Below are positions 30,773 through 44,802 of a stretch of 46,801 bases of DNA, in pieces. The notes beneath the pieces are model-generated. The model ran no database searches. It was not told the DNA's origin and saw only the letters and a list, made by a program, of their open reading frames with translations. The translations under genes were made by a program, and so were the position numbers. Numbering within the stretch: position 1 is the first letter of the stretch; every line of letters starts with the position of its first letter. Source of the DNA: Pseudobdellovibrionaceae bacterium (lineage in GTDB: Bacteria > Bdellovibrionota > Bdellovibrionia > Bdellovibrionales > UBA1609); contig JABJQG010000020.1 of assembly GCA_018663505.1 (NCBI GenBank), positions 216,152 to 262,952 of the forward strand, written 5' to 3'.

Positions 30773-31540
30773 ATGAAAATACACAATGAATTATTAGCTC
30801 TCAGAGAAAAAGAAAAACAATTATCATCTTTAATTTTAGAAAAACTACAGATCATGGAAGAACAACGTTTGTATTTAAAATTGGGTTATTCCTCTTTATT
30901 TGATTACCTAGTCCGAGGCTTAGGTTATTCTGAAACCATGGCTTATCAAAGACAAAGCTGCCTACGACTCAGCTTTGAACTTCCTGAAATAAAAGAAAAA
31001 TTGGATATAGGTACCTTAACTCATAGTAATATTTCCCTAGCCTATAAAGCCATAAAAAATCAACCTGTAAATAAAAAGCGAGAAATATTAGAGACCATAG
31101 AAAACAAAACATTCCGTGAAGCTAAAAAAATCTTAGCCCCCATGGCTCCTCCCATTAAAGTGAAACAACAGTTTTTCCAGAACAAGGTGCTTCTAAAGAT
31201 GGAACTTACACATGAAGAGCACAAAAAACTCCATCAGCTTAAATCTTTAAAATTTCATAAACACAATTTAGAATCTTTATTTATGAATCTAGTGGATCAA
31301 GAACTCAAAAAATATACTAAAACAGATTACAAAATTTCAAAGTCTAAAAACCCACGTTATATATCCGTAAAACTAAGAAATAATATTCTCAAAAAGGCAA
31401 AGTATCAATGCCAACACAAAGGTTGTGAGGAGACTCACTATTTACAAATTGACCATATCAAACCAGTGAGACATGGCGGTAAAGCTAATCCAAATAATCT
31501 TCAAGTGCTTTGCTCGGGGCATAACAGGGGTAAAGGTTAA
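30773..31540 (+). CDS. HNH endonuclease family protein, 255 aa
   Basis: The ATG follows GAGG at 30760-30763. Residues about 35-110 form a helical region with GYSSLFDYLVRGLGYSE, reminiscent of the DUF222-like N-terminal part of HNH proteins that occur in many copies in Bdellovibrio-type genomes (family knowledge). The C-terminal 60 residues are a classical HNH nuclease module: CQHKGC metal ligands, the catalytic DH in QIDHIKPVRHGG, the middle Asn in NNLQVLC, and the final His in GHNRGKG. The protein stops only six residues after this last motif, at the very edge of the domain. Such genes are often mobile or repeated; here a duplicated non-coding unit lies directly upstream. Substrate and biological role are unknown. 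Confidence 0.85.
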   Translation: MKIHNELLALREKEKQLSSLILEKLQIMEEQRLYLKLGYSSLFDYLVRGLGYSETMAYQRQSCLRLSFELPEIKEKLDIGTLTHSNISLAYKAIKNQPVNKKREILETIENKTFREAKKILAPMAPPIKVKQQFFQNKVLLKMELTHEEHKKLHQLKSLKFHKHNLESLFMNLVDQELKKYTKTDYKISKSKNPRYISVKLRNNILKKAKYQCQHKGCEETHYLQIDHIKPVRHGGKANPNNLQVLCSGHNRGKG

Positions 31541-32334: not shown

Positions 32335-32946
32335 CTAGTAAAAATAAGTAAGCCCTACCAACATACGCGTAGTGGTCCCTGTAACAGTCACTGTGGAAAA
32401 ACCATAGCCTAAGCCAAGTCCTGCACGGGCTTCTATACCTAGGTTCTCACCCACTTGATATATAGCTCCAGCATTTCCAGACATATCTAACACGGTACTG
32501 TATGTTCCAAGGACTAAACCAAAATCAATTACCAAGACTTGAGCAACCCCAACATTCCAGCCCCAGTAGTATCTTAATTTAGGTGTGTTTTTAAATTGCA
32601 CCCGTTTTTCGGTACGAAAATCTTTTCTTCCTCTGGAGGCAATATAATTTGATTGCCCTATTCCTGCATATGTATAGTTCACTCTATTGGTATCAAGCTC
32701 CATGGCCATTACAGCACGCAAAGTGTATGATTTGACTCTGCTCTGAAATATTTCCATTTCTATATCTATTGTTGTTGGAACGGACCAAGCTCTTGTTTCC
32801 ACACCTGATCCGGCGTAGCTACCGCTAAATAAACCCATACGCGTGTGAACTTGGTATCGGCTCCCCTTATCTAAGGCAAAAACATTTTCATACTGAAATA
32901 AAAATAATGCTACAAATATTATAACACTAAGCTGCTGCATACTCAC
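32335..32946 (-). CDS. Predicted outer-membrane beta-barrel, 203 aa
   Basis: This is the last gene of a three-gene minus-strand operon. Its start lies inside the end of the FliF/FliG-like gene (20-base overlap), so translation is probably coupled. A GAGGAA site (32951-32956) serves either GTG 32946 or the in-frame ATG 32940, two codons later. Residues about 1-24 are a signal peptide ending NVFA. The mature part shows alternating beta strands with many Tyr/Trp and Gly turns and ends in LVGLTYFY, a terminal aromatic as in proteins inserted by the Bam machinery. It is small, about 8 strands. Its place after an envelope motor-like protein suggests an outer-membrane partner, but no homologous named family is recognised. 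Confidence 0.8.
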   Translation of the reverse strand: MSMQQLSVIIFVALFLFQYENVFALDKGSRYQVHTRMGLFSGSYAGSGVETRAWSVPTTIDIEMEIFQSRVKSYTLRAVMAMELDTNRVNYTYAGIGQSNYIASRGRKDFRTEKRVQFKNTPKLRYYWGWNVGVAQVLVIDFGLVLGTYSTVLDMSGNAGAIYQVGENLGIEARAGLGLGYGFSTVTVTGTTTRMLVGLTYFY

Positions 32947-34915
32947 CGGCTTCCTCTATGTCAGCAACGCCATTGTCCTTAAGCCATTTACTTAAAACAA
33001 CTTCCGCTGCATCAGAAACTGCTGTGTCTTTTTTTATTGTCATTCGGGCACTTACAATAAATTTGTTCCAAATTTGACTTTTATTTTTTTGTATTTGCTT
33101 TTTTATTTTATCATTGGATTTAATTTCATCAAGTTCAGAGTCTATAATCTCTCGTAATCTTCCTGTTTCACCAATAGCACTCATAAAAAGCTTTTGCTCT
33201 TCATTAGATCTGGAAAATATTAAATGAGCACGATCCTTAGTTGAAAGACGACTTAATAGAGATTTTATCTGATCTTTAGGAAATTTAGTGATAAGCTGTG
33301 CTGGAAAATATTTTTTCGTAGCCTCTCTAATTTGCTCATGGTCTCCTGATGCTACAAGTAAGCTAAAGACCTGGTGCTCTCTCTCAGCTCCTAATTGGCG
33401 AATTAAATCAATGGATTTATCAATAATTGGCACTCTTAATTTTTGCTTACTTAACCGAACTTGCTCTAGGCTTGATGGTAAGTTTTCTTGCATATATTGA
33501 ACACTGTCGGCATTAAAATTCAAACTGTCTTCAAGTAATTTTGTCACTTCTTCTTCTGATAATAAAGAAAACAATCTTCCCAATTGAGCCGTCTGCAACA
33601 CATTAACAAATCCTGATCCATATGTATCATCCTGACGAATACACTCTACAAACTCTTCCACAGTTGCATCGGCAATAGTTTCTTTTAATTCATCAGGCAA
33701 TGCGATAGTATCCACTAAAAATGTATCCACCAATTGATCAATGATAAAAGTATCGGCCTTTTGAATATCATCAAAACCTACTGTTTGAGAAGATGCTTTT
33801 TTTAACTTTAGTTTTAAACCGTCTTCAAGTCCGCCAATAACTGGCATTAAAGCTTCAACAGGAATCCTCTTTGTTATTGCAGCCAAAGCCCCTTGAGATT
33901 CTTGCGTATTCATATTCAGCCATATTTTCATAAGGTACATAGCTGTCTCTGGGTATTGTTCAGCCATTTTGCGAAACTGATTAATCCCAGTGTCCCCGTC
34001 AGATCCACTGGAAGCCATTGCATTTATATCCACAGGTGATGATGATTCCTCTGGCTCTATCACTTCTTGTATAGCTCCACTTTCTTGTGAAGCTTGCGCC
34101 GCTTGAGCCTGCTGTGCATTGGCCGCTGCCATAAGTGCTACTTTTTGACCTTCAAATGTTTTAAATCCACTGATGCCCAAAAGAAGTAAAATTGTGGCAA
34201 TTACAATTCCTAAAGGTAATTTAAAATTCACCACCCATTCTTGCCAAGTTTTAGGTAAAAGAATTTCTTTTTTTTCTCCATCTAAATTTTTTAACTCTAC
34301 CCCTTGGGTTGCTGCAATTGCTTGGGCAATTTTATCATTACTTTTTAATATGGCATCAGCAACAAGCTTGACACCCTCAATATTTAACTTTGCAACTTCT
34401 ATTTTTTCTTGCATAGTTTCGCCTACAGTTAACATAGGAGATTTATTAATTTTCAGAAATGCTTTTTTCCCGGTATATGACAGTACAGTTTGTGAAACAA
34501 ATGATTTAATTTGTGTTTCTTGAACTCGACCAATTTTTGGGTCAATAAGAATTCTCACATCCACTCTATTTATTCGAGAGAAAATATTATTATTACCAGA
34601 AGCAATTGCCTTTTTAAAGGCTTTACTATTTCTATTCAAACCCAGCTTTTCTAAGGGAAAGCTTTTTTTACTTGTCTTACTTGAGTTTCCAACATTCATA
34701 CGCTTTGATGCTTTTAGTCCAATTTCAATATTCACCAGAAATTTGCCAGGAGGTGCAAAGGACTGTATCCCATGATTTAGTTTTTCCTCAATTTCTTTTT
34801 GAAGTTCAACTTTTTGCCACTCTAATGGTATAGTATAAGCGCCACCTTCTTCAGCCAAGATTTGCACTGAGAAAAGAAATAAAAATAGAGTAATAAGATA
34901 AGACTTCATCCCCAC
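32927..34915 (-). CDS. FliF-FliG-like fusion protein (membrane ring/rotor), 662 aa
   Basis: The N-terminus is a signal peptide or first membrane helix (about 5-20). The periplasmic part, about 22-232, includes VDVRILIDPKIGR, then QIKSFVSQTVL and LKINKSPM, similar to the ring-building segment of FliF. A membrane helix spans about 233-251, followed by an Ala/Gln-rich linker. RKMAEQYPETAMYLMKIWL (about 315-333) resembles the FliF C-terminal helix that binds FliG. The remaining 330 residues look FliG-like: LLSRLSTKDRAHLIFSRSNEE aligns with the FliG C-domain segment that carries the charged torque residues (SKDLA...SEE). FliF and FliG are normally separate proteins. The start is GTG 34915, overlapping the TAG of the lipoprotein gene, or ATG 34909. 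AAGGAAG lies upstream of both. Family resemblance is by eye; the fusion interpretation is inference. Confidence 0.72.
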   Translation of the reverse strand: MGMKSYLITLFLFLFSVQILAEEGGAYTIPLEWQKVELQKEIEEKLNHGIQSFAPPGKFLVNIEIGLKASKRMNVGNSSKTSKKSFPLEKLGLNRNSKAFKKAIASGNNNIFSRINRVDVRILIDPKIGRVQETQIKSFVSQTVLSYTGKKAFLKINKSPMLTVGETMQEKIEVAKLNIEGVKLVADAILKSNDKIAQAIAATQGVELKNLDGEKKEILLPKTWQEWVVNFKLPLGIVIATILLLLGISGFKTFEGQKVALMAAANAQQAQAAQASQESGAIQEVIEPEESSSPVDINAMASSGSDGDTGINQFRKMAEQYPETAMYLMKIWLNMNTQESQGALAAITKRIPVEALMPVIGGLEDGLKLKLKKASSQTVGFDDIQKADTFIIDQLVDTFLVDTIALPDELKETIADATVEEFVECIRQDDTYGSGFVNVLQTAQLGRLFSLLSEEEVTKLLEDSLNFNADSVQYMQENLPSSLEQVRLSKQKLRVPIIDKSIDLIRQLGAEREHQVFSLLVASGDHEQIREATKKYFPAQLITKFPKDQIKSLLSRLSTKDRAHLIFSRSNEEQKLFMSAIGETGRLREIIDSELDEIKSNDKIKKQIQKNKSQIWNKFIVSARMTIKKDTAVSDAAEVVLSKWLKDNGVADIEEAGEYAAA

Positions 34916-35673
34916 TATTTCTTCCTTTTACGCTTTGATTTGCGACGTTTTTTCGAACGTTGCTTTTTAGATTTTTTCTTTTTCTTTTTCTTTTTTGAAA
35001 TTAACTTGCTCGCCGGTAATCGCCCTCTTTCATATTTTTTTGCCAACGCTCTTCCATCAATACCGAGTTGATCTTCCAAGGTTTTTTGCATCTGGGCAAT
35101 AGGAACAGAATTTGGATTGTATTTTTGGGCTAATGAGTAAGCGGCTAATGCATCTTTGTATTTTTTTTGTAAAAAGAATATGCCAGCTCTAAGTTCATAA
35201 ACCGCAGAAAGATATGGCCACTTTTGTTCTATAAAATTAAGCCGGTTCAATGCTTCATTATAACTTTCCAAAGCAATAAACTTTCTTACCTCAAAAAGGC
35301 GGTCAATGGCTTGGTTTAAACTTTGAGAACTCTCCAGGCCTTTCCCAGGACCTTGGCCTTGTTGGTCGTCTACTAATTGTAAGGCAAAATCCAATTTCAT
35401 GTCTGTTGCTGAGGATTCTGTAATTAAAATACTTTCAGTGAGGAAATCATCTTTATGCACTTCCACAATTATAGGTCCCGAGTCCGCTCCAGCAGATTTT
35501 AACTTCTCATTACTAACAACAGTTGGTGTTAAGCCCATCTCAATAAGCTCTCCCCCACCCACTGGACGAATCAATACCCTGGCCTTCTCAGGCACAGAAT
35601 TAACAGTTAAAGAAGCTGATGTACAAGCTAGTAAGCTCAATAACAACATAGCTGCTGTGACAATTTTAATCAT
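34915..35673 (-). CDS. PEGA/TPR-like lipoprotein with polybasic tail, 252 aa
   Basis: The ATG at 35673 has a GAGGA site six bases upstream. The signal ends in lipobox LLAC with Cys17, so it is a lipoprotein. Residues about 20-95 resemble a PEGA-type surface domain (SLTVNSVPEKARVLI... LTPTVV). Residues about 120-205 contain helix pairs of the TPR type (ALNRLNFIEQKWPYLSAVYE; AGIFFLQKKYKDALAAYSLA; AQKYNPNS). The last 27 residues are almost entirely Lys and Arg with a few Ser. This is the first gene of the operon, and its stop codon overlaps the start of the FliF/FliG-like gene by one base. A scaffold or PG/LPS-contact role is plausible but unproven. The coding strand of the tail is a long purine tract prone to slippage. 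Confidence 0.8.
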   Translation of the reverse strand: MIKIVTAAMLLLSLLACTSASLTVNSVPEKARVLIRPVGGGELIEMGLTPTVVSNEKLKSAGADSGPIIVEVHKDDFLTESILITESSATDMKLDFALQLVDDQQGQGPGKGLESSQSLNQAIDRLFEVRKFIALESYNEALNRLNFIEQKWPYLSAVYELRAGIFFLQKKYKDALAAYSLAQKYNPNSVPIAQMQKTLEDQLGIDGRALAKKYERGRLPASKLISKKKKKKKKSKKQRSKKRRKSKRKRKK

Positions 35674-35894
35674 ATATTATCCTCATATACCATTTCGGAT
35701 ATTGCCCTAGATAACTGTAACTATCTGAATACTTGAAAAGTAATCCACACATAGGTCTAAATATAACTATTCTATAGTCCTATTGAGCTCATATTATTAT
35801 TGAAAATAAGTTCATCTGGCACATGCTTCTTTTTTCTATTATAATTATGACAAGCATCTGCCAACCGCTTCATAATAAACTCTAGGAGAATTTC

Positions 35895-37121
35895 TTGAAA
35901 AAAATATTTGCCCTAATTGTCTTAATTGTTGTTTTGGCATTTAGTATTATCGCTTATCGAAGAAGCCTCATAACTCCATTGGTAGATATTGATGAAAACT
36001 ACCGACTAGGTGCAATTAGTTTTCAATCTAAAGCTTTAGAACGTACAGATATTGCCACTAGATTTCTAAATATAAGCTATTCTCATGTGGAACTTATAGA
36101 GAAATCTCCCATTCTACATGAGTTAGCGTTACAAGAATTAAATATGCTAATTGAAGCTTCATCAAAAATAATTAAATCACTTCCCCCTACTCAAAAAAAA
36201 CCTCTAGTGATCATCATGGCTGCCAAACCATCAAAAAAATATTTTTTTGATGCTGTAAAATATGCTTTTGATCTCAATTTTTCAGTTGAACGCCCTTTTG
36301 GACACATTGTGATAATCAATGAAAAAAAATATCTCCGTCAAAATCTACCTATGAATCAAATGAAGTATTCAGAAATCAAAACACAACAATTTAACCAGAG
36401 ACTTAAAGTCATTAAGGGCCTTTATACCAGGCAATTATTACTTAAATTAGCTAAAGAAAAAAATATAAGCATTGGTGAGTTGGTTAAAAACACGGTATCG
36501 CAATCTAATTTAAATACATCAAACTCTGTTGATACAATTATAGCCTCAAGCTTCCCAAATGCCGTGGCTGATATCTTTTTTTATCCTCCTAACTATATTT
36601 TTCCTATGAACCGCAATAAAATAATCACTAACTACCCTAGTGACATAAAAGAAGTTCGGCCCACTCTAATAATCATTGGAAGCTTAAGCTGTAACGGATG
36701 CCAAAAGCTTTTATTGACATTAAAAAACCTGCAAAATAATTATAATGAGGAAATCAGTTTTGGGTTTATACAATTTTTTCAAAACGCCGATTGGCGCCAA
36801 CAGATGGTTGCCGAAGCCTCAATGTGCTTAAACCAGCAAAGTTATGAATCCTTTTGGATGTTTAGCAAAAAACTTTCAAGTAATATGGAACCTATCTCGG
36901 AAGATTTTATAATGAATACCGCAAAAGAAACGGGGGTAAAATTTGATAACTTTAAAAACTGTATGCTTTCTCACTCCTTTAAAGTTGATGTAGAGAAACA
37001 ACTTAAATACTCACATAAAATTGGAACTACAAAGTCCCCAACTGTAATCGTAGGTGGCTCAGTGCTTACCGGCATAATAAGCGAAGAACAACTTATAAAT
37101 GCTATTAAGGGCGACATTTAG
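35895..37121 (+). CDS. Membrane-anchored DsbA-like thiol oxidoreductase, paralogue, 408 aa
   Basis: The start is TTG 35895, five bases after AGGAGA (35884-35889); no ATG fits the signal anchor (KKIFALIVLIVVLAFSIIAY). A TATAAT at 35840-35845 may be its -10 element, without a good -35. The layout matches the 28215-29546 protein: helical periplasmic region, then a DsbA-like fold with CNGC at 266-269, the second Cys pair (EASMCLN, FKNCML), a cis-Pro loop KSPTV and GGSVLTG. It is shorter because the ISDDEIN-type SurA-like segment is missing. It is divergent from the FliF/FliG operon across 221 bases, so it may also serve the proteins of that operon. Redox direction cannot be told from sequence. 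Confidence 0.86.
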   Translation: MKKIFALIVLIVVLAFSIIAYRRSLITPLVDIDENYRLGAISFQSKALERTDIATRFLNISYSHVELIEKSPILHELALQELNMLIEASSKIIKSLPPTQKKPLVIIMAAKPSKKYFFDAVKYAFDLNFSVERPFGHIVIINEKKYLRQNLPMNQMKYSEIKTQQFNQRLKVIKGLYTRQLLLKLAKEKNISIGELVKNTVSQSNLNTSNSVDTIIASSFPNAVADIFFYPPNYIFPMNRNKIITNYPSDIKEVRPTLIIIGSLSCNGCQKLLLTLKNLQNNYNEEISFGFIQFFQNADWRQQMVAEASMCLNQQSYESFWMFSKKLSSNMEPISEDFIMNTAKETGVKFDNFKNCMLSHSFKVDVEKQLKYSHKIGTTKSPTVIVGGSVLTGIISEEQLINAIKGDI

Positions 37122-37161
37122 ATTGATTATCCAAATTGTAGTCTCGGGGTAGCTTTCGAGG

Positions 37162-37884
37162 TTATTTGCGATTTGAAGGTGGGAGCCTTCGACCATCTGG
37201 CTTTGTAGTACTTTTTGCTTGATTAACAATACCTGGAGAAACTACTTTAATTACAACTCTTCGATTTTTTTCTCTATTTTCTCGAATTGGAATATTTCTT
37301 TTATCTCTATTCGGGTAAGCTGGCCGTGAATCCGCATATCCAACTGACACCATCATTTTAGGATCATAGCCCGTGGAAATAAACTCTCTCACAACACTGG
37401 CCGATCGGGCTCCAGACAACTCCCAATTTGACGGGAATCTTCGGGTACTAATAGGAGCATCATCAGTGTGCCCTGCTATAAATATTTCAGCTTTATCTAC
37501 ATTTTTTGAAATCAAACGTGCCATCATAACCATAGTTTTTTTAACATCAGACCGAAGGGTTGCACTACCACTTTTAAACAAAAGATTACTTCTAAAAGTA
37601 ATCTCCATCCCATCTTTTGGTTGCTGTACATCCACCATTTTCATTATCGGATGATCCTCAACTTGTTTTGCTAGCTCATCAGCCAACTCTTCGTATGGAG
37701 GTACATAGCTCCCACCAAAAGACTTGGCTAAACCTTCACGAACCTTCTCCGCGTCGCCAGATTTTGCAGAGGCAAAAACATAAAGAAGCACAAAGAAACC
37801 AAAAAGAAGAGTCATTAAATCAGCATATGAAATTAGCCATAGCTCATCATCACCATGCTCTTCTTCGTGCCCAGAATCATCCAT
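37162..37884 (-). CDS. motB: MotB-type stator protein with OmpA-like peptidoglycan-binding domain
   Basis: MotB anchors the ion-driven stator to peptidoglycan and carries the ion-binding Asp. The single membrane helix (about 16-38) begins WLISYADLMTLLFGF with Asp22 at the position of the essential stator Asp. The periplasmic OmpA-like domain has LLFKSGSATL (101-110), GHTDD (138-142), NWELSGARS (153-161) and the NREKNRRV motif (203-210). At 240 residues it is a little shorter than Escherichia coli MotB. Its ATG overlaps the TAA of motA by one base (TAATG), so the pair is coupled. No other standard flagellar gene is in the window; the nearest motor-like neighbour is the FliF/FliG-like operon. 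The ion used (proton or sodium) is not clear from sequence. Confidence 0.93.
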   Translation of the reverse strand: MDDSGHEEEHGDDELWLISYADLMTLLFGFFVLLYVFASAKSGDAEKVREGLAKSFGGSYVPPYEELADELAKQVEDHPIMKMVDVQQPKDGMEITFRSNLLFKSGSATLRSDVKKTMVMMARLISKNVDKAEIFIAGHTDDAPISTRRFPSNWELSGARSASVVREFISTGYDPKMMVSVGYADSRPAYPNRDKRNIPIRENREKNRRVVIKVVSPGIVNQAKSTTKPDGRRLPPSNRK

Positions 37885-38681
37885 TATGCTTTTGCTCCTT
37901 CTATATTCTTTCTATCCAATCGTTCTTTAGGCAGTAAATATGAGTTAAGTTCTTCAGCAACAAGTATATTATTTTTTTTCTTAGAAATTAGCTTTATTCC
38001 TTCTACAACCATAAGATTCTTAGCTTGAACTTCCCTAGCCCCATCCATAAGGTTTTCAGCAATGGGTAAAATGATTAAATTAGATAAAGCAATACCATAT
38101 AATGTAGCAACAAGGGCAACAGCCATAGCCGGACCAATATTTTCTTCGGCCCCTGGTTGTCCAAGGGTCTGAAGTAGCGCAATCATTCCAAGCACCGCAC
38201 CCATTAAGCCCATTGCGGGAGGAAATTTGCCAATAGCTTTAAACTTTTTTGCATCTTCCATATAGCGATAATTCATTGTCTTTGCTCGTAACTGTAAAAT
38301 ATGTTCTAGCTCTTTTTCATCTAAAAAATCATCCATTAAAATACCCATGGTTTCTTTAATGAAATGGTCATCAGTCTTGTCCACTAAGGATTTTAAATTG
38401 GGGTCATTAGTACGATAAGCCTCAGCTAACACCATTAATTGCTTTATAATTTCAGTAAATTTAATTTTTTGTCCTCTTACAACACGAGTAAAAAAGACAT
38501 GTATCATCAATAAAACCTTATCAAACTGAAAAGAAATTGCTGTAACGGCGATTGTCCCACCAAATACAATCAAACCAGCATGATAATCTATAAAGGCCAT
38601 GGGATTATTTGTTGATGTGAATACACCTACTCCAAAAACAGTAAATGCCATAACAAATGCAATAATGGACATTAAATTCAT
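37884..38681 (-). CDS. motA: MotA-type stator protein
   Basis: MotA forms the channel and torque-generating ring around MotB. Four membrane helices are visible: about 3-22, 33-52, 156-174 and 183-207. The cytoplasmic loop between helices 2 and 3 is about 100 residues, as in the family. Pro154/Pro155 in FPPAMGLMGAVLG correspond to the conserved Pro at the start of the third helix, and VALVATLYGIALSNLI is the typical fourth helix. Length is 265 residues, within the usual range. A very strong ribosome site (GAGGGAGGGG) sits just upstream of ATG 38681. It is the first gene of a two-gene operon with motB. Genomes of this group usually carry several motAB pairs (family knowledge), so this pair may not serve the flagellum. 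Confidence 0.93.
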   Translation of the reverse strand: MNLMSIIAFVMAFTVFGVGVFTSTNNPMAFIDYHAGLIVFGGTIAVTAISFQFDKVLLMIHVFFTRVVRGQKIKFTEIIKQLMVLAEAYRTNDPNLKSLVDKTDDHFIKETMGILMDDFLDEKELEHILQLRAKTMNYRYMEDAKKFKAIGKFPPAMGLMGAVLGMIALLQTLGQPGAEENIGPAMAVALVATLYGIALSNLIILPIAENLMDGAREVQAKNLMVVEGIKLISKKKNNILVAEELNSYLLPKERLDRKNIEGAKA

Positions 38682-38824: not shown

Positions 38825-39817
38825 ATGAAAAAAACTGATAAATTTTTAATAACCCTATCCCTAATTATATTTGCTGCCGCCATTTTTGCAGTTGCCGACT
38901 ATGACAGACTTTTCAATCGATCCTCAAGCAAAAAAATTATCGCTCGAGTTGAAAGTGTTTCCAAAGATAGTCTAATAAAATCACCAGACGCATTTGAATA
39001 CAAACAATTGAAAGTAAATGACCCCATTACCAACGGAGACAACCTATTTTCTGGAGATGAATCTGAAATTCTAGTGAAATTTATTAATGGCCCGCGAGTT
39101 GTCATTGGCAAAGAAAGCACCATTTCTTTCCGCCAAGTGGATGGCCAACCGGATTTAAAAATTGATAAGGGCAGTTTTTCGGGCACCTTTGAAGAGGGGG
39201 ATATGCTCGATGTATCTACTGACAATGAAGTCATTACTTTAAATGGAAATAAAGATACACAGTTTTCCATTTCTCAAATTAAAAATGGCAACCTAGAAAT
39301 AGGTAGCTTTAGTAAAGACTTACAAGTGGAACATAAAGGAAAAAAAATAACTCTAAAAAATGAAAAAGCCTCTATATCTCCAGGCAAAGGCCTTCAATCC
39401 AATAAAAAGACGAGCTCTACTCCAGTTAAAAATTTAGCTACAGCTAATGAGGTTTCCCTAGATACTCCCAAAAAAAAGAAAACCGGATTAGTTAATAAAG
39501 CCCCATATCCAAAGTCTAATCATATTTTTCTTCACAAAACAGGAGGCACAATACCCGTATATCCTAAAGCACTATGCAAAGGGGCTTGTACGCTAAGTGT
39601 TTCCCTAAATGGGCAACAAACCTTACAAAAAGCATTTCAAAGAGATATGATACCCGTTATGTATTTAAAGGTTAAACCCAAAACCACAGCAAAAGTTGTA
39701 TGGACTTTCAATGATGGTGGCGATGATATCACTGGTGAATTTGAAATATTAATCAATAATCAAGAAAATTTTCAAAAAGCTTTTGATAAAAAATCACCTG
39801 TGGAAGTGATGAATTAA
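38825..39817 (+). CDS. FecR-domain membrane-anchored protein, 330 aa
   Basis: One N-terminal membrane anchor (about 7-25) is followed by a periplasmic FecR-type domain (about 40-180). Its core is ITNGDNLFSGDESEILVKF, then VVIGKESTISFRQ and LKIDKGSFSG, the pattern of FecR beta repeats. FecR proteins classically relay periplasmic signals; here no sigma factor or TonB receptor is adjacent. After a Ser/Lys linker comes a C-terminal domain (about 225-330) with a Cys-x3-Cys pair (CKGAC) that is shared with the paralogue at 43741-44802. The gene is divergent from motA and convergent with the HAMP-protein operon. It has no ribosome site, consistent with leaderless expression. The partner is probably in the neighbouring SpoIIE/HAMP cluster, but this is inference. 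Confidence 0.8.
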   Translation: MKKTDKFLITLSLIIFAAAIFAVADYDRLFNRSSSKKIIARVESVSKDSLIKSPDAFEYKQLKVNDPITNGDNLFSGDESEILVKFINGPRVVIGKESTISFRQVDGQPDLKIDKGSFSGTFEEGDMLDVSTDNEVITLNGNKDTQFSISQIKNGNLEIGSFSKDLQVEHKGKKITLKNEKASISPGKGLQSNKKTSSTPVKNLATANEVSLDTPKKKKTGLVNKAPYPKSNHIFLHKTGGTIPVYPKALCKGACTLSVSLNGQQTLQKAFQRDMIPVMYLKVKPKTTAKVVWTFNDGGDDITGEFEILINNQENFQKAFDKKSPVEVMN

Positions 39818-40335: not shown

Positions 40336-41394
40336 TTATTTCAATTTATTTTCAAGCTCATTAACAGCTTCAGTGAGCTCAGCAACTTCATCACTTGAAT
40401 TTATGGGCAATGATTTTCCATAGTTCCCCGCTTTCATTAAATTCACCTTACCACTCAGTTTTTTTAATGAATTCACAATTCCATTTGTTGAAAGAACCCC
40501 AATAAAAATAGAAAAACTGAGCATTGAAATAAGAAATAAAATCGACTTGTACTTTATTTCTTTTACAATTCCCATCACCTTATTCTTTTCAGCTACAGCT
40601 ACTACCAAAAGATCAGAAATTCCCACTTTTGCAAATGATACCAACATTTGCTCACCAGAAAAATTGCTAATTTCAGCAATACCTGTTGGAAGTCTGTTTG
40701 CTAAGATAGGGTCAAAAAAGTTCATATTACCGATTTCAAACTGGTCTGACTTATTTAATCTATATTTTGGACCCATTGATAAAAATTTACTTTTGCTTAA
40801 AAGGAAGTTTTTATACGTTGTGGGAGTTACAAAACTTTCATAAAGTGCAACCGATTGAAACACCGAAAGTGTCAAATAGTCTCTTTTAATCGTTTTTGAT
40901 TTGTGTTTATTCACTAACACAAAAAACCGTTTGTTAGATTTCACCTCCTGTACGGCAAAACCTTTATCCATAGCTTGCATTAAAAGGGCTTCAATAACTT
41001 CGCCACCAGGGGAGAAGCTTCTAACAGTTCTATTTGGCAAATACAGATGATCCATTTCTTGAAAAGACTCACCCGTTGTTGGAAGATAAATATAAATATG
41101 TTCAAGGCGTTCTTGTTTTAGAAAAAAATCACTGGAAGCAGCTGTAAATCGAAATTTATTCTGATCCAGTGATTCCTCAACCGGTTTCAAAATATTTTTA
41201 ATTGCGTCAATTTCCCATCGTACTTGGGTAGCTAAAGTTCTTACAACAATCTCGGAGGAATCATACAGGTATTTTTTTTTGTCATTTAAAAAAGTATTCA
41301 GCGTTACAAAAGCATACGCACTCAGTCCACCTACTGAAACCAATAGAACAACCAATATCATTTTATACTTCAACGAGAAAACTTTCTTAGCCAT
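40336..41394 (-). CDS. Membrane sensor with HAMP, lacking the phosphatase output, 352 aa
   Basis: This is a paralogue of the sensor half of the 41446-43290 phosphatase; the two align from SL(K/R)YK near the start through the HAMP. Shared landmarks are DKKxYxxDSS after helix 1, PTxxKxxLxSKS(K/R)F in the middle, FF(D/N)PIL, and a Gly-Ile/Val-Gly-Asp-Leu motif before the second helix (about 278-300). The periplasmic domain of about 240 residues resembles dCache-like sensors. The HAMP-like tail (about 300-352) ends in NELENKLK, where the paralogue continues into its PP2C domain. The ATG has AGGTG seven bases upstream. It may form heterodimers with the phosphatase and tune it. This twin arrangement is seen in the sequence; the regulatory role is inference. 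Confidence 0.82.
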   Translation of the reverse strand: MAKKVFSLKYKMILVVLLVSVGGLSAYAFVTLNTFLNDKKKYLYDSSEIVVRTLATQVRWEIDAIKNILKPVEESLDQNKFRFTAASSDFFLKQERLEHIYIYLPTTGESFQEMDHLYLPNRTVRSFSPGGEVIEALLMQAMDKGFAVQEVKSNKRFFVLVNKHKSKTIKRDYLTLSVFQSVALYESFVTPTTYKNFLLSKSKFLSMGPKYRLNKSDQFEIGNMNFFDPILANRLPTGIAEISNFSGEQMLVSFAKVGISDLLVVAVAEKNKVMGIVKEIKYKSILFLISMLSFSIFIGVLSTNGIVNSLKKLSGKVNLMKAGNYGKSLPINSSDEVAELTEAVNELENKLK

Positions 41395-41445: not shown

Positions 41446-43290
41446 TTATTTATATTGAACCCAGAAGAGCGTGATATCATCTACAAGTGGTGTGTTTTCA
41501 CGGTATGAGTCTAGTGTTTTTTTGTATTTATCTACTTTTCCTGCAATATGAGGGCTTTTTTGTGCCGACTCAAGAATGGCCTTAATCATGCTTCTTTCTC
41601 CAAACTCTTTTCCTTCTGAGTTCTGTAAATCAATGATACCGTCAGTAAAGAAAAATATTGAATCCCCCTCCTGCAATTGATACGTCCCTTCTTTATAAGT
41701 GGATCCTGGAGCCTCTCCTAATCTCTTACCTAAAGCCACATCACATAGTGGCACCAAGTCCTTTTTCTTTAGTCCTTTTTTTGCGGGAATAACATATGGA
41801 AACTCATGAGAAGCATTTGCATATTGAACAGAACCAGTATTAGGGTCTATGGCAGCCAAAAAGAAGGTCATTAAAATTGATCCATGGGCCGTAGAATTTA
41901 AGGCATGATTCATAACCTCTAAGGCATCACTAGGAGACATACCACTGGAAGCCTCTATAATGGCTGCCGCAGACCTTGCTGCACCTGTAATCAGTGCTGC
42001 TGAAGCACCATGTCCCGTAACATCACCAATCCATAAATAAATCTTTTCATCAATGATACAATAATGAAACCAGTCTCCACCACATTCACTAGCAGGTTCA
42101 AAGTGACTCACAATTTTTAAGGGGCCTATTTCCATAGTTTGCTCGGGAAACAGGTTTTCTTGAACAACTCTTACCATTTCTAACTCATTTTCCATTCGAG
42201 CCTGATCTGCAGTGGTCTTTAACAGATTCGAAACTTCTTGAGCCATAGCAACAAATCGCCGTCCTAGCTCACCAAACTCATCTCTAGAACTCACATCTAG
42301 TTCAATTTTAAAATCCCCTTTACTAATTTTTTCAGTAGCTTTTAATAGTTCACCTATTGTGTCAGTGAGCCCCCTTGAAAGCACTACACTTATCAAAAAA
42401 GCAATGCAAACAATGGCTATAAAAAACAACAGAGACTTAAACACTAAACTATCCACCGCAGCAAATGCAGCCGCCTTGTCAACAACAGATGCCACCATTA
42501 AATCCCCCACGCCCACGTTGGAAAAGGAGATTAAGGCAGGATGCCCATCTTTTGTATTTACCTCAGCCGTTCCTTCTGGAACTAGCTGATTCAAAATTGG
42601 ATTAAAAAAATTAAATGCTTCAATTTTGATTTTGTCCCCATGAGTCCTTATAAATTTAGGTTTCATGGAAAAAAATCGACTTTTACTTATAAGGTAACTT
42701 TTAAACATGGTCGGGGTTGCAAAAGCCTCAAAAATCTCTGGCGATCTATAAATAGATAAGGAAATAAAGTGATTTGCACTCTTCACAGGATTATGACTCT
42801 GCATGATTAAAAAAAATCTGGTTTTAACTTTATAGTCACTTATAATAATCCCTTTTGATACAGCAATTTTCTGCATTGTAATTAGCCCATTAGGATCTAA
42901 CTTGGGGCTTATAACCTCTCGTCCGCTAGTCATAAGATGATCAGTGATCGAGTAAAACTCAGACCTTGCCGCTTTTTTATAAATGATTAAATGCTCAATG
43001 CTTGTTTGTGCATTAAAAAAGCTTTTAGACCGTGAGCTTAGTTTTAGATTAGCATAATTAATAGATTCTAATATTGGTTTTGCAATTTTGTTATAGGAAC
43101 TGAGTTCTAGCTTTACCTGACTAGATAAAGCCCTAGCATTAAACACTGAGGAATCAAAAATATATGCCTTCTTATCCTCGTAAAAAAGGTTGATAGCCAT
43201 AACTAAATAGATAGCTAAAAATGAAATGGGAAGGGCCGCCAGAAGAACCAATAACTTATATCGTAAAGAAATTTGAATTTTTGCACCCAT
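41446..43290 (-). CDS. SpoIIE-family PP2C phosphatase with periplasmic sensor and HAMP, 614 aa
   Basis: A serine/threonine phosphatase that typically dephosphorylates anti-anti-sigma (STAS) proteins in partner-switching. Helix 1 (about 11-34), a periplasmic sensor (about 35-284), helix 2 (about 286-305), HAMP (about 306-360), a linker helix ending near QENLFPEQ, then the SpoIIE/PP2C domain (about 390-614). Metal-binding residues are in place: Asp406 in ECGGDW, Asp423 in IGDVTGHGASAA, Asp550 in FFFTDGIID and Asp604/605 in VDDITLFW, so it should be active. The membrane sensor suggests control by an envelope signal. No STAS protein or anti-sigma kinase is in the window. The start at ATG 43290 has no clear ribosome site. 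It may be translated after the 48-residue protein upstream. Confidence 0.93.
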   Translation of the reverse strand: MGAKIQISLRYKLLVLLAALPISFLAIYLVMAINLFYEDKKAYIFDSSVFNARALSSQVKLELSSYNKIAKPILESINYANLKLSSRSKSFFNAQTSIEHLIIYKKAARSEFYSITDHLMTSGREVISPKLDPNGLITMQKIAVSKGIIISDYKVKTRFFLIMQSHNPVKSANHFISLSIYRSPEIFEAFATPTMFKSYLISKSRFFSMKPKFIRTHGDKIKIEAFNFFNPILNQLVPEGTAEVNTKDGHPALISFSNVGVGDLMVASVVDKAAAFAAVDSLVFKSLLFFIAIVCIAFLISVVLSRGLTDTIGELLKATEKISKGDFKIELDVSSRDEFGELGRRFVAMAQEVSNLLKTTADQARMENELEMVRVVQENLFPEQTMEIGPLKIVSHFEPASECGGDWFHYCIIDEKIYLWIGDVTGHGASAALITGAARSAAAIIEASSGMSPSDALEVMNHALNSTAHGSILMTFFLAAIDPNTGSVQYANASHEFPYVIPAKKGLKKKDLVPLCDVALGKRLGEAPGSTYKEGTYQLQEGDSIFFFTDGIIDLQNSEGKEFGERSMIKAILESAQKSPHIAGKVDKYKKTLDSYRENTPLVDDITLFWVQYK

Positions 43291-43740: not shown

Positions 43741-44802
43741 ATGACTAAGCTTTGGACAAATTGTAGTACACTGGAGAGAATTTTTATAATTTTTTCTTTT
43801 GTAATTTTGTTTTCATCTATCACAATACTCGTATCCTATGACAATATATTTCGTGGAGCTCAAGTACACCCAGATGACAAAATCGCTGTGGTGGTTTCTT
43901 CAACCAACAGTATTCGAAGAAGAATTCCCATGAGCTATGGATTTAATATATTAAAAGAAGGGGATATCATAGGAAGTGGGGATTCCATTTTTTCTGGCGA
44001 AGGTTCTCAGGTTATGGTTAAGTTTTTAAAGGGCTCACGACTCATCATTGGTGAGCAAAGTTTAGTTGTACTTAGAGAGCTTGATGGAAAAATAGATGTA
44101 AAAATAGAAAAAGGAGGGATTTCCGGAGCTTTAGAAGCGGCAGAGGAAATACAGATTCAAGCTGAGGATGATGCTGTCACTATTAACGGAGAAAAGGAAT
44201 CACAATTTTCAGTTTTTTACAAACCTGGTTTAGGTATGGAAGTCATTGGCTTTGAAAAAAATATTAATGTGAAATTTCGTGGACATGAAGTTAATTTAAA
44301 AAATAAAAAGGCATTTGTTTCTAATAAAACTGGAATGCAAACTTCAAAGAAAAGCTCCAATCCAGATGGTAAAGAAGCTAGAGAACCTGCCTCAAAGAAA
44401 CCTCAAGCCGATCCCCCCCCACCAGCTCTACCAAAAGGAATGGCTGTTGAGAAAGCTAAAAAGCATAGTGCACTTACTCTAGGGGCCCCTTTCCCTTCTG
44501 CCAATCAAGTTTTTCTCCATTCTAAAGGGGGTACAATCCCTGTGTTTCCAAAAGAGCAATGTATTGATAGTTGTACACTTAAAATTTTAATCAATGGAAA
44601 GCCAGGCTTGGTGAAAAGCTTTAAAAAACATACTGTTCCACTCGTGTATTTAAAAATTGAAACAAATATTCAAGCTGAGGTGAGTTGGGTTTTTCAAGAT
44701 GGAAAAGAATCCATAAATGGAAGTTTTAGTGTGTTGCAAAATAATGAAGTCAGTTTTGGCAAAGCCCTTAAAGAAAAACGCCAAATTGAAGTTATAAATT
44801 AA
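43741..44802 (+). CDS. FecR-domain membrane-anchored protein, paralogue, 353 aa
   Basis: Same architecture as the 38825-39817 protein: one anchor helix (about 13-33), a FecR-type periplasmic domain (about 45-190) with SGDSIFSGEGSQVMVKF, LIIGEQSLVVLRE and IEKGGISGALE, a Lys/Pro-rich linker (QADPPPPALPKG), and a C-terminal domain with SKGGTIPVFP, a Cys-x3-Cys pair (CIDSC) and a final QIEVIN. Clear residue-level similarity in both halves shows the two are duplicates. The leader contains a direct 10-base repeat CTCAATAAAA (43683-43702), and the nearest upstream GG-rich site is too far from ATG 43741 to be a good ribosome site. It faces away from the phosphatase operon and converges with the 44813 gene, ten bases away. 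Function is likely envelope signal relay, unproven. Confidence 0.8.
   Translation: MTKLWTNCSTLERIFIIFSFVILFSSITILVSYDNIFRGAQVHPDDKIAVVVSSTNSIRRRIPMSYGFNILKEGDIIGSGDSIFSGEGSQVMVKFLKGSRLIIGEQSLVVLRELDGKIDVKIEKGGISGALEAAEEIQIQAEDDAVTINGEKESQFSVFYKPGLGMEVIGFEKNINVKFRGHEVNLKNKKAFVSNKTGMQTSKKSSNPDGKEAREPASKKPQADPPPPALPKGMAVEKAKKHSALTLGAPFPSANQVFLHSKGGTIPVFPKEQCIDSCTLKILINGKPGLVKSFKKHTVPLVYLKIETNIQAEVSWVFQDGKESINGSFSVLQNNEVSFGKALKEKRQIEVIN

Follow-up and report, generated by a model that had tools for sequence, protein, structure and literature searches.

Does the locus at 32335-38681 (minus strand) of the DNA analysed here encode a rotary machine other than the flagellum? The window, i.e., the whole analysed stretch of 46,801 nucleotides (G000:C49:216152-262952), stems from a Pseudobdellovibrionaceae genome of 3.78 Mb that is 97% complete. 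In transcription order, the locus holds motA, motB and the genes of a TPR lipoprotein, of a 662-aa FliF-FliG fusion protein (FFG in the following) and of a barrel-like outer-membrane protein. Overlaps of 1-20 bases connect motA/motB, lipoprotein/FFG and FFG/barrel. All five genes were found at the positions, strand and overlaps given by an earlier reading made from the letters alone (the original prediction). Given the evidence below, we think it probable that this module is a small ion-driven rotary motor of flagellar derivation, with neither export apparatus nor switch and coupled to the outer membrane.

We studied whether or not FFG combines parts of FliF and FliG, as had been claimed. Scanned alone against Pfam, NCBIfam, PHROGs and PDB, the 662-aa protein is recognized as neither FliF nor FliG. 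Its best Pfam signal is MgtE_N, a family with a FliG-like fold, at 21.5 bits and thus below the cut-off of 25.9. Since single-sequence scans are blank in this respect, family profiles are needed. A hidden Markov model (HMM) from 28 FFG relatives aligns colinearly with residues 235-550 of flagellar FliF from the same phylum, i.e., with RBM3, the transmembrane helix TM2 and the FliG-binding tail, and it also matches the M and C parts of true FliG. Based on 42 FFG sequences, hhalign relates the family to FliF 238-554 (probability 94%, E 1e-7) and to FliG 16-297 (probability 93%, E 4e-7). None of 100 column shuffles reaches either score (best shuffled 23 vs. 69 for FliF and 59 for FliG). Gap columns were removed for this control; an earlier run had produced one anomalously high score among 20 shuffles, which we take as an artefact. 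When FFG profiles are compared with all PDB sequences, FliG ranks first (E 1.6e-19 and 3.3e-12) and FliF is found in two colinear stretches (E 8.8e-4), while unrelated chains score far lower. The FFG of Bdellovibrio bacteriovorus HD100 even clears the Pfam cut-offs, with 40.2 bits for FliG_C (cut-off 23.3) and 32.0 bits for FliG_M (cut-off 25), and one member of the window's own FFG family matches FliG_C. That is, both halves of the claimed fusion are confirmed, and in neither did the profile searches come back empty.

Structure models were generated from three sequences each with AlphaFold2. For the cytoplasmic part of the window's FFG (mean predicted local distance difference test score, pLDDT, of 66.9), the top eight Foldseek matches are all FliG (VIA Z 8.7). 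None of them passes E < 0.001, such that we treat this model as support and not as proof. In the full-length model, which is poor (mean pLDDT 47.5), residues 31-158 still follow an RBM in their alpha-beta-beta-alpha-beta arrangement. Combining profiles, models and sequence features, we arrive at a signal peptide (~1-21), an RBM3-like periplasmic domain (~31-160), a transmembrane helix (~233-251), a FliF tail with FliG-binding helix (~310-335), a FliG-like part (~340-630) and a C-terminal Ala-Ala. FFG is thus the RBM3, TM2 and FliG-binding tail of FliF joined to FliG. TM1, RBM1 and RBM2 (YscJ/FliF, PF01514), which in FliF house export gate and rod, are not found in FFG; in the genomes of the window (G000) and of HD100 (G113, taken as that strain), PF01514 hits the true FliF alone.

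The C-terminus itself is peculiar. It is Ala in 44/50 FFG, with 31 Ala-Ala and 9 Val-Ala endings, vs. 7% and 2.6% of the other open reading frames (ORFs) of the same loci. The pattern suggests a conserved signal, which might be an ssrA-like tag for proteolysis, while the overlap with the start of the barrel gene may account for part of it.

Next, we investigated how far the gene order is conserved among 241 sampled genomes of Bdellovibrionota. A first FFG profile matches 55 of them and a broader one 142. We rely on the ~77 genomes (our count) with E below 1e-20, since the weak tail of the 142 includes true FliG and FliF, e.g., the 343-353 aa frames in G055 and G062. A general scan of genome contigs gave two loci, and a scan of viral sequences yields no FFG relatives. 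Where FFG loci were compared, the lipoprotein is present in 48/49 (within 50 bp in 40) and the barrel in 43/49 (within 50 bp in 31), such that the expected conservation of the gene order is borne out. The same holds for the co-occurrence with motAB: motA lies within 8 kb of FFG in 38/49 loci, 32 of them on the same strand, and motB in 36. With three stator genes spread over 3.8 Mb, we estimate a chance expectation of ~1-2%, i.e., the association is far above chance. Pairwise distances of FFG correlate with those of MotA (r=0.75) and of the lipoprotein (r=0.93; Mantel p 2e-4), values to which shared species history contributes. Genomes with two modules keep two different MotA types. In two of four such pairs (G015, G209), each MotA is nearest to that of similar modules elsewhere; for the other two (G183, G226), the nearest neighbours agree in part only. 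FFG, MotA and lipoprotein thus seem to travel together as units, and many Bdellovibrio-like predatory bacteria carry the module.

The residues expected of a torque-generating interface are largely retained. The equivalent of FliG D289 (Glu594 in the window's FFG) is E or D in 35/35 FFG and that of FliG R281 is K or R in 28/35. On the stator side, 34 of 38 module MotAs have Arg at the position that corresponds to MotA R90, and the channel Asp of MotB is kept wherever its motif could be located. It is this conservation of charged residues that supports a use of the module for torque. The FliM-binding motif EHPQ, present in 19/19 FliG, is found in 0/50 FFG. Pfam scores of the window's stator genes are 72 (MotA_ExbB), 54 (MotB_plug) and 51 bits (OmpA).

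We also compared the module with the flagellar gene content of its carriers. The original prediction had stated that rod, hook, switch and export genes are missing. This holds inside the window, while its genome does encode flagellar fliF/fliG (C16), flhA (C9) and canonical motAB (C25) on other contigs. No export, rod, hook or switch gene occurs in any module locus that was read, and modules never adjoin flagellar genes there; a linkage of the module's motAB to flagellar genes, with the remaining operon occurring independently in relatives, was not observed. Some carriers lack FliG altogether. In genome G183 (94% complete), two modules with MotAB occur in the absence of FliG_C and FlhA, and the FliF signal is a weak partial match in another frame. 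G029 and G031 (97 and 99% complete) contain the lipoprotein-FFG-barrel trio without FliF and FliG, with one MotB each on the FFG contig, ~24-26 kb from the trio. In G002 and G034, FliF, FliG and detectable FFG are all absent, and so is MotB. As far as can be judged from the sequences, the FFG module is INDEPENDENCE from the flagellum by locus and by genome content. Given its occurrence in relatives without a flagellum, the module probably constitutes a rotary machine of its own next to the flagellar one.

Isolated pieces of the same families are also encountered. A 498-aa protein of G183 (L220:915-2411), with homologues in G107 and G135, carries an N-terminal YscJ/FliF part alone, in a genus that lacks FliG and FlhA. 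Stand-alone FliG_C proteins of ~142-164 aa and ~241-263 aa (L116-L125, L167, L171, L172) are encoded, at a distance from flagellar genes, in many genomes of Bdellovibrionota.

For HD100, the assignment can be related to published data. Here, the FFG has 577 aa, and 4.2 kb separate its gene from a motB-motA pair found at 2.919 Mb. Judged from position and strand order rather than from locus tags, this module stator appears to be MotAB2 (Bd3021/Bd3020), which has been classed as a flagellar stator (PMC11323537). The other motAB pairs, at 0.129 and 3.172 Mb, fit Bd0144/0145 and Bd3254/3253. MotA of the Bd3254/3253 pair falls into the canonical MotA clade, from which a very long branch (6.7) separates the module MotAs. 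In a two-hybrid assay, FliL-Bd1076 bound MotB3 and not MotB2 (PMC11323537), which would fit a MotAB2 that works in a different machine. Expression of motAB2 shifts strongly in fliL mutants (PMC11323537). Among open-licence papers, we found none on the HD100 genes Bd3014-Bd3019.

How could such a module work? We regard the following as established at the level of sequence comparison: FFG is homologous to FliF and FliG with the domains in order, the operon is conserved, it lies apart from flagellar genes and occurs without a flagellum, the torque and channel residues are retained, and the FliM site is lost. Building on this, FFG subunits would assemble into a ring in the periplasm by means of their RBM3-like domains, each would span the inner membrane with a single helix, and the cytoplasmic end of this one chain would supply a FliG-like wall of the rotor. 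MotB would anchor the module's MotAB to peptidoglycan, and MotAB would push on the FliG-like torque helix of FFG. Lipoprotein and barrel may couple the periplasmic side of the ring to the outer membrane such that the motion reaches the cell surface, where it could serve surface movement or adhesion. On this view, the set may also be complete from inner to outer membrane and may serve gliding or prey contact, as the original prediction proposed. Artificial FliF-FliG fusions assemble and rotate in Salmonella according to work cited in PMC4768692, which makes a fused rotor mechanically plausible. Bdellovibrio glides without flagella or pili, by a machinery that a 2026 review calls unidentified (PMC13104615), and the FFG module is a candidate for this engine. 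The joint assumption is more demanding, i.e., that a non-flagellar FliF-FliG rotor machine with its own MotAB and dedicated outer-membrane coupling is spread across Bdellovibrionota and that its HD100 version, built around MotAB2, powers or helps flagellum-independent gliding. We regard it as doubtful, though worth considering.

The features of the window are collected in Table 1.

Table 1. Module genes and surrounding features of the window
Feature	Position	Strand	Remarks
FFG, 662 aa	32927..34915	(-)	domain boundaries from profiles, models and sequence features
barrel-like outer-membrane protein, 203 aa	32335..32946	(-)	signal peptide, C-terminal aromatic residue
TPR lipoprotein, 252 aa	34915..35673	(-)	invariant lipobox Cys17, weak TPR, Lys-rich tail
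module MotB, 240 aa	37162..37884	(-)	channel Asp in SYAD; OmpA-type peptidoglycan-binding domain
module MotA, 265 aa, PomA/MotA type	37884..38681	(-)	FliG-contacting Arg90 equivalent conserved
thioredoxin-like gene (408 aa), unrelated	35895-37121	(+)	between motAB and the lipoprotein-FFG-barrel trio
HAMP-SpoIIE phosphatase, probable regulator	41446..43290	(-)	homologues near FFG loci
paralogue of the sensor part of the HAMP-SpoIIE phosphatase	40336..41394	(-)	HAMP, without SpoIIE; possible regulator, association inferred
membrane protein	38825..39817	(+)	family beside the module in 7 of the clustered loci; FecR-like in one relative
repetitive lipoprotein, 8,818 aa	1657..28113	(+)	~100-residue Ig-like repeats, lipobox-like N-terminus; possible adhesin or load, association suggestive only
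thioredoxin/DsbA-like protein, 443 aa	28215-29546		paralogue of the product of 35895-37121
HNH-endonuclease-like ORF	30773-31540		C-terminal CxxxxC...H...H, motif reading only; between giant protein and module
membrane protein	43741-44802		paralogue of the product of 38825-39817

Within the module, the lipoprotein had been described as a PEGA/TPR protein. A weak TPR signal is retained, while PEGA (PF08308) is not listed by Pfam at E <= 1 and goes back to a resemblance of N-terminal motifs. The barrel counterparts of HD100 and Tiberius match OMP_b-brl weakly.

Among the neighbours, a homologue of the HAMP-SpoIIE phosphatase lies within 8 kb in 16/49 FFG loci, HD100 included, which suggests a control of the module by this phosphatase. 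In G183, a gene for a PilZ-domain (cyclic di-GMP binding) protein is placed between motB and the lipoprotein gene (L160:8263-9327), which hints at control of the motor by cyclic di-GMP. Giant repetitive surface-type proteins as well as VWA and FecR-like proteins recur near modules and might be the motor's load. The two paralogous membrane proteins of the window flank the regulator genes, and a third copy of the thioredoxin/DsbA-like proteins is found near the module in L010.

Several observations weigh against a rotary motor as outlined above. In 11/49 FFG loci, motA is missing within 8 kb, some of these loci being at contig ends. The MotA E98 equivalent is not conserved in module MotAs, and both predicted FFG structures are of low confidence, as is evident from their mean pLDDT values (47.5 and 66.9). 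Each HD100 motAB pair, the presumed module pair among them, is reported to make a mild contribution to flagellar swimming, as judged from deletions (Morehouse, 2011). Finally, G107 keeps MotAB at a syntenic locus without detectable FFG. Compared with G183 of the same genus (L160), the G107 locus (L162) retains the order giant protein-motA-motB-PilZ while lipoprotein and FFG are gone, which we read as a rotor that was lost in nature while its stator stayed.

Could the module instead be an accessory of the flagellum that supplies it with stators, or with one more rotor ring plus an outer-membrane bushing, and thereby tunes torque or sheath rotation? Most carriers are flagellated (FliF in 218/241 sampled genomes), and the flagellar classification of motAB2 as well as its response to fliL mutation would fit (PMC11323537). 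Yet modules persist in G183, G029 and G031 without FliG, which agrees with the expected presence in genomes lacking it, and they are never found beside flagellar genes in the loci read. FFG has lost EHPQ, the module MotA is far from canonical MotA (branch 6.7), and FliL-Bd1076 did not bind MotB2 (PMC11323537). We therefore consider an accessory role unlikely. Also improbable, to a similar degree or slightly more so, is a static transducer or sensor, i.e., FFG as a clutch or scaffold that sits on MotAB without rotating, with MotAB exerting pull on the outer membrane or sensing it like TolQR/ExbBD and signalling via SpoIIE phosphatase and PilZ. The phosphatase at 16/49 loci and the PilZ protein within the G183 operon would be in accordance with this, and a bare FliG-like arm could serve as a clutch. 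However, both the ring-building RBM3 domain and the acidic residue of the torque helix are conserved, and TolQR/ExbBD work with TolA/TonB and not with FliF/FliG parts.

The most serious competitor concerns the purpose and is compatible with the mechanism given above. That is, the motor might not move the cell but turn or load giant surface proteins, or act in prey attachment or exit, while Agl/Glt drives gliding. The recurrence of giant repetitive surface, VWA and FecR-like proteins speaks for this, as do a published gliding candidate, the Agl/Glt cluster Bd0828-0838 (PMC3169522), and the induction of aglQ bd1480 on surfaces (PMC9140294). Nothing directly contradicts it, beyond the statement of the 2026 review that the machinery behind gliding has yet to be identified (PMC13104615). 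We hold this to be a real possibility, if short of the likelier outcome.

If the rotary motor reading applies, the consequences are threefold. A rotor-stator set reduced to this extent, lacking export gate and switch, bears on the origin or the dismantling of the flagellar motor. The HD100 stator pair hitherto read as flagellar would probably be part of another machine. And the module provides a concrete candidate engine for the surface movement of Bdellovibrio, in a strain (HD100) in which gene deletion is routine.

Finally, we compared the module with known systems. We found no description of it in the open-licence literature, while an earlier account elsewhere is possible. We know of no FliF/FliG rotor that is combined with one of the non-flagellar MotAB relatives (Tol, Exb, Agl, Gld, Zor). 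Zorya (ZorAB) shares a MotB-like OmpA protein. As anti-phage defence of this type, the module was rejected: MotB alone matches ZorB models, MotA has no ZorA match, and the other three proteins match no defence model. The Agl-Glt system of Myxococcus and Bdellovibrio likewise is an ion-driven stator-type motor that reaches the outer membrane, with homologues in Bdellovibrio, but it uses TolQR-like AglRQS stators and Glt proteins and has no FliF/FliG rotor (PMC3169522). With flagellar FliF and FliG, the module shares RBM3, TM2, the FliG-binding tail and FliG M/C in the same order, and with flagellar MotA/MotB the channel Asp and the key Arg. In contrast to the flagellar motor, its rotor is one chain without TM1, RBM1, RBM2 and EHPQ, FliM/FliN as well as export, rod and hook genes are missing, and a lipoprotein and an outer-membrane barrel are added. 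Artificial fusions, i.e., those of Salmonella and a Vibrio ring of solved structure (PDB 8z4d, PMC11481574), are engineered and were made in or from a normal flagellar system. A natural FliF-FliG fusion is known from Chlamydiaceae, bacteria not thought to be flagellated (PMC4768692). It differs in its length of ~330 aa, in combining an RBM2-like and one RBM-like domain with FliG M only, and in being found with FliL and FlhA, with no MotAB or outer-membrane trio described there (PMC4768692). Fusing FliF to FliG thus has a precedent in Chlamydiaceae, and what appears to be new is the module.

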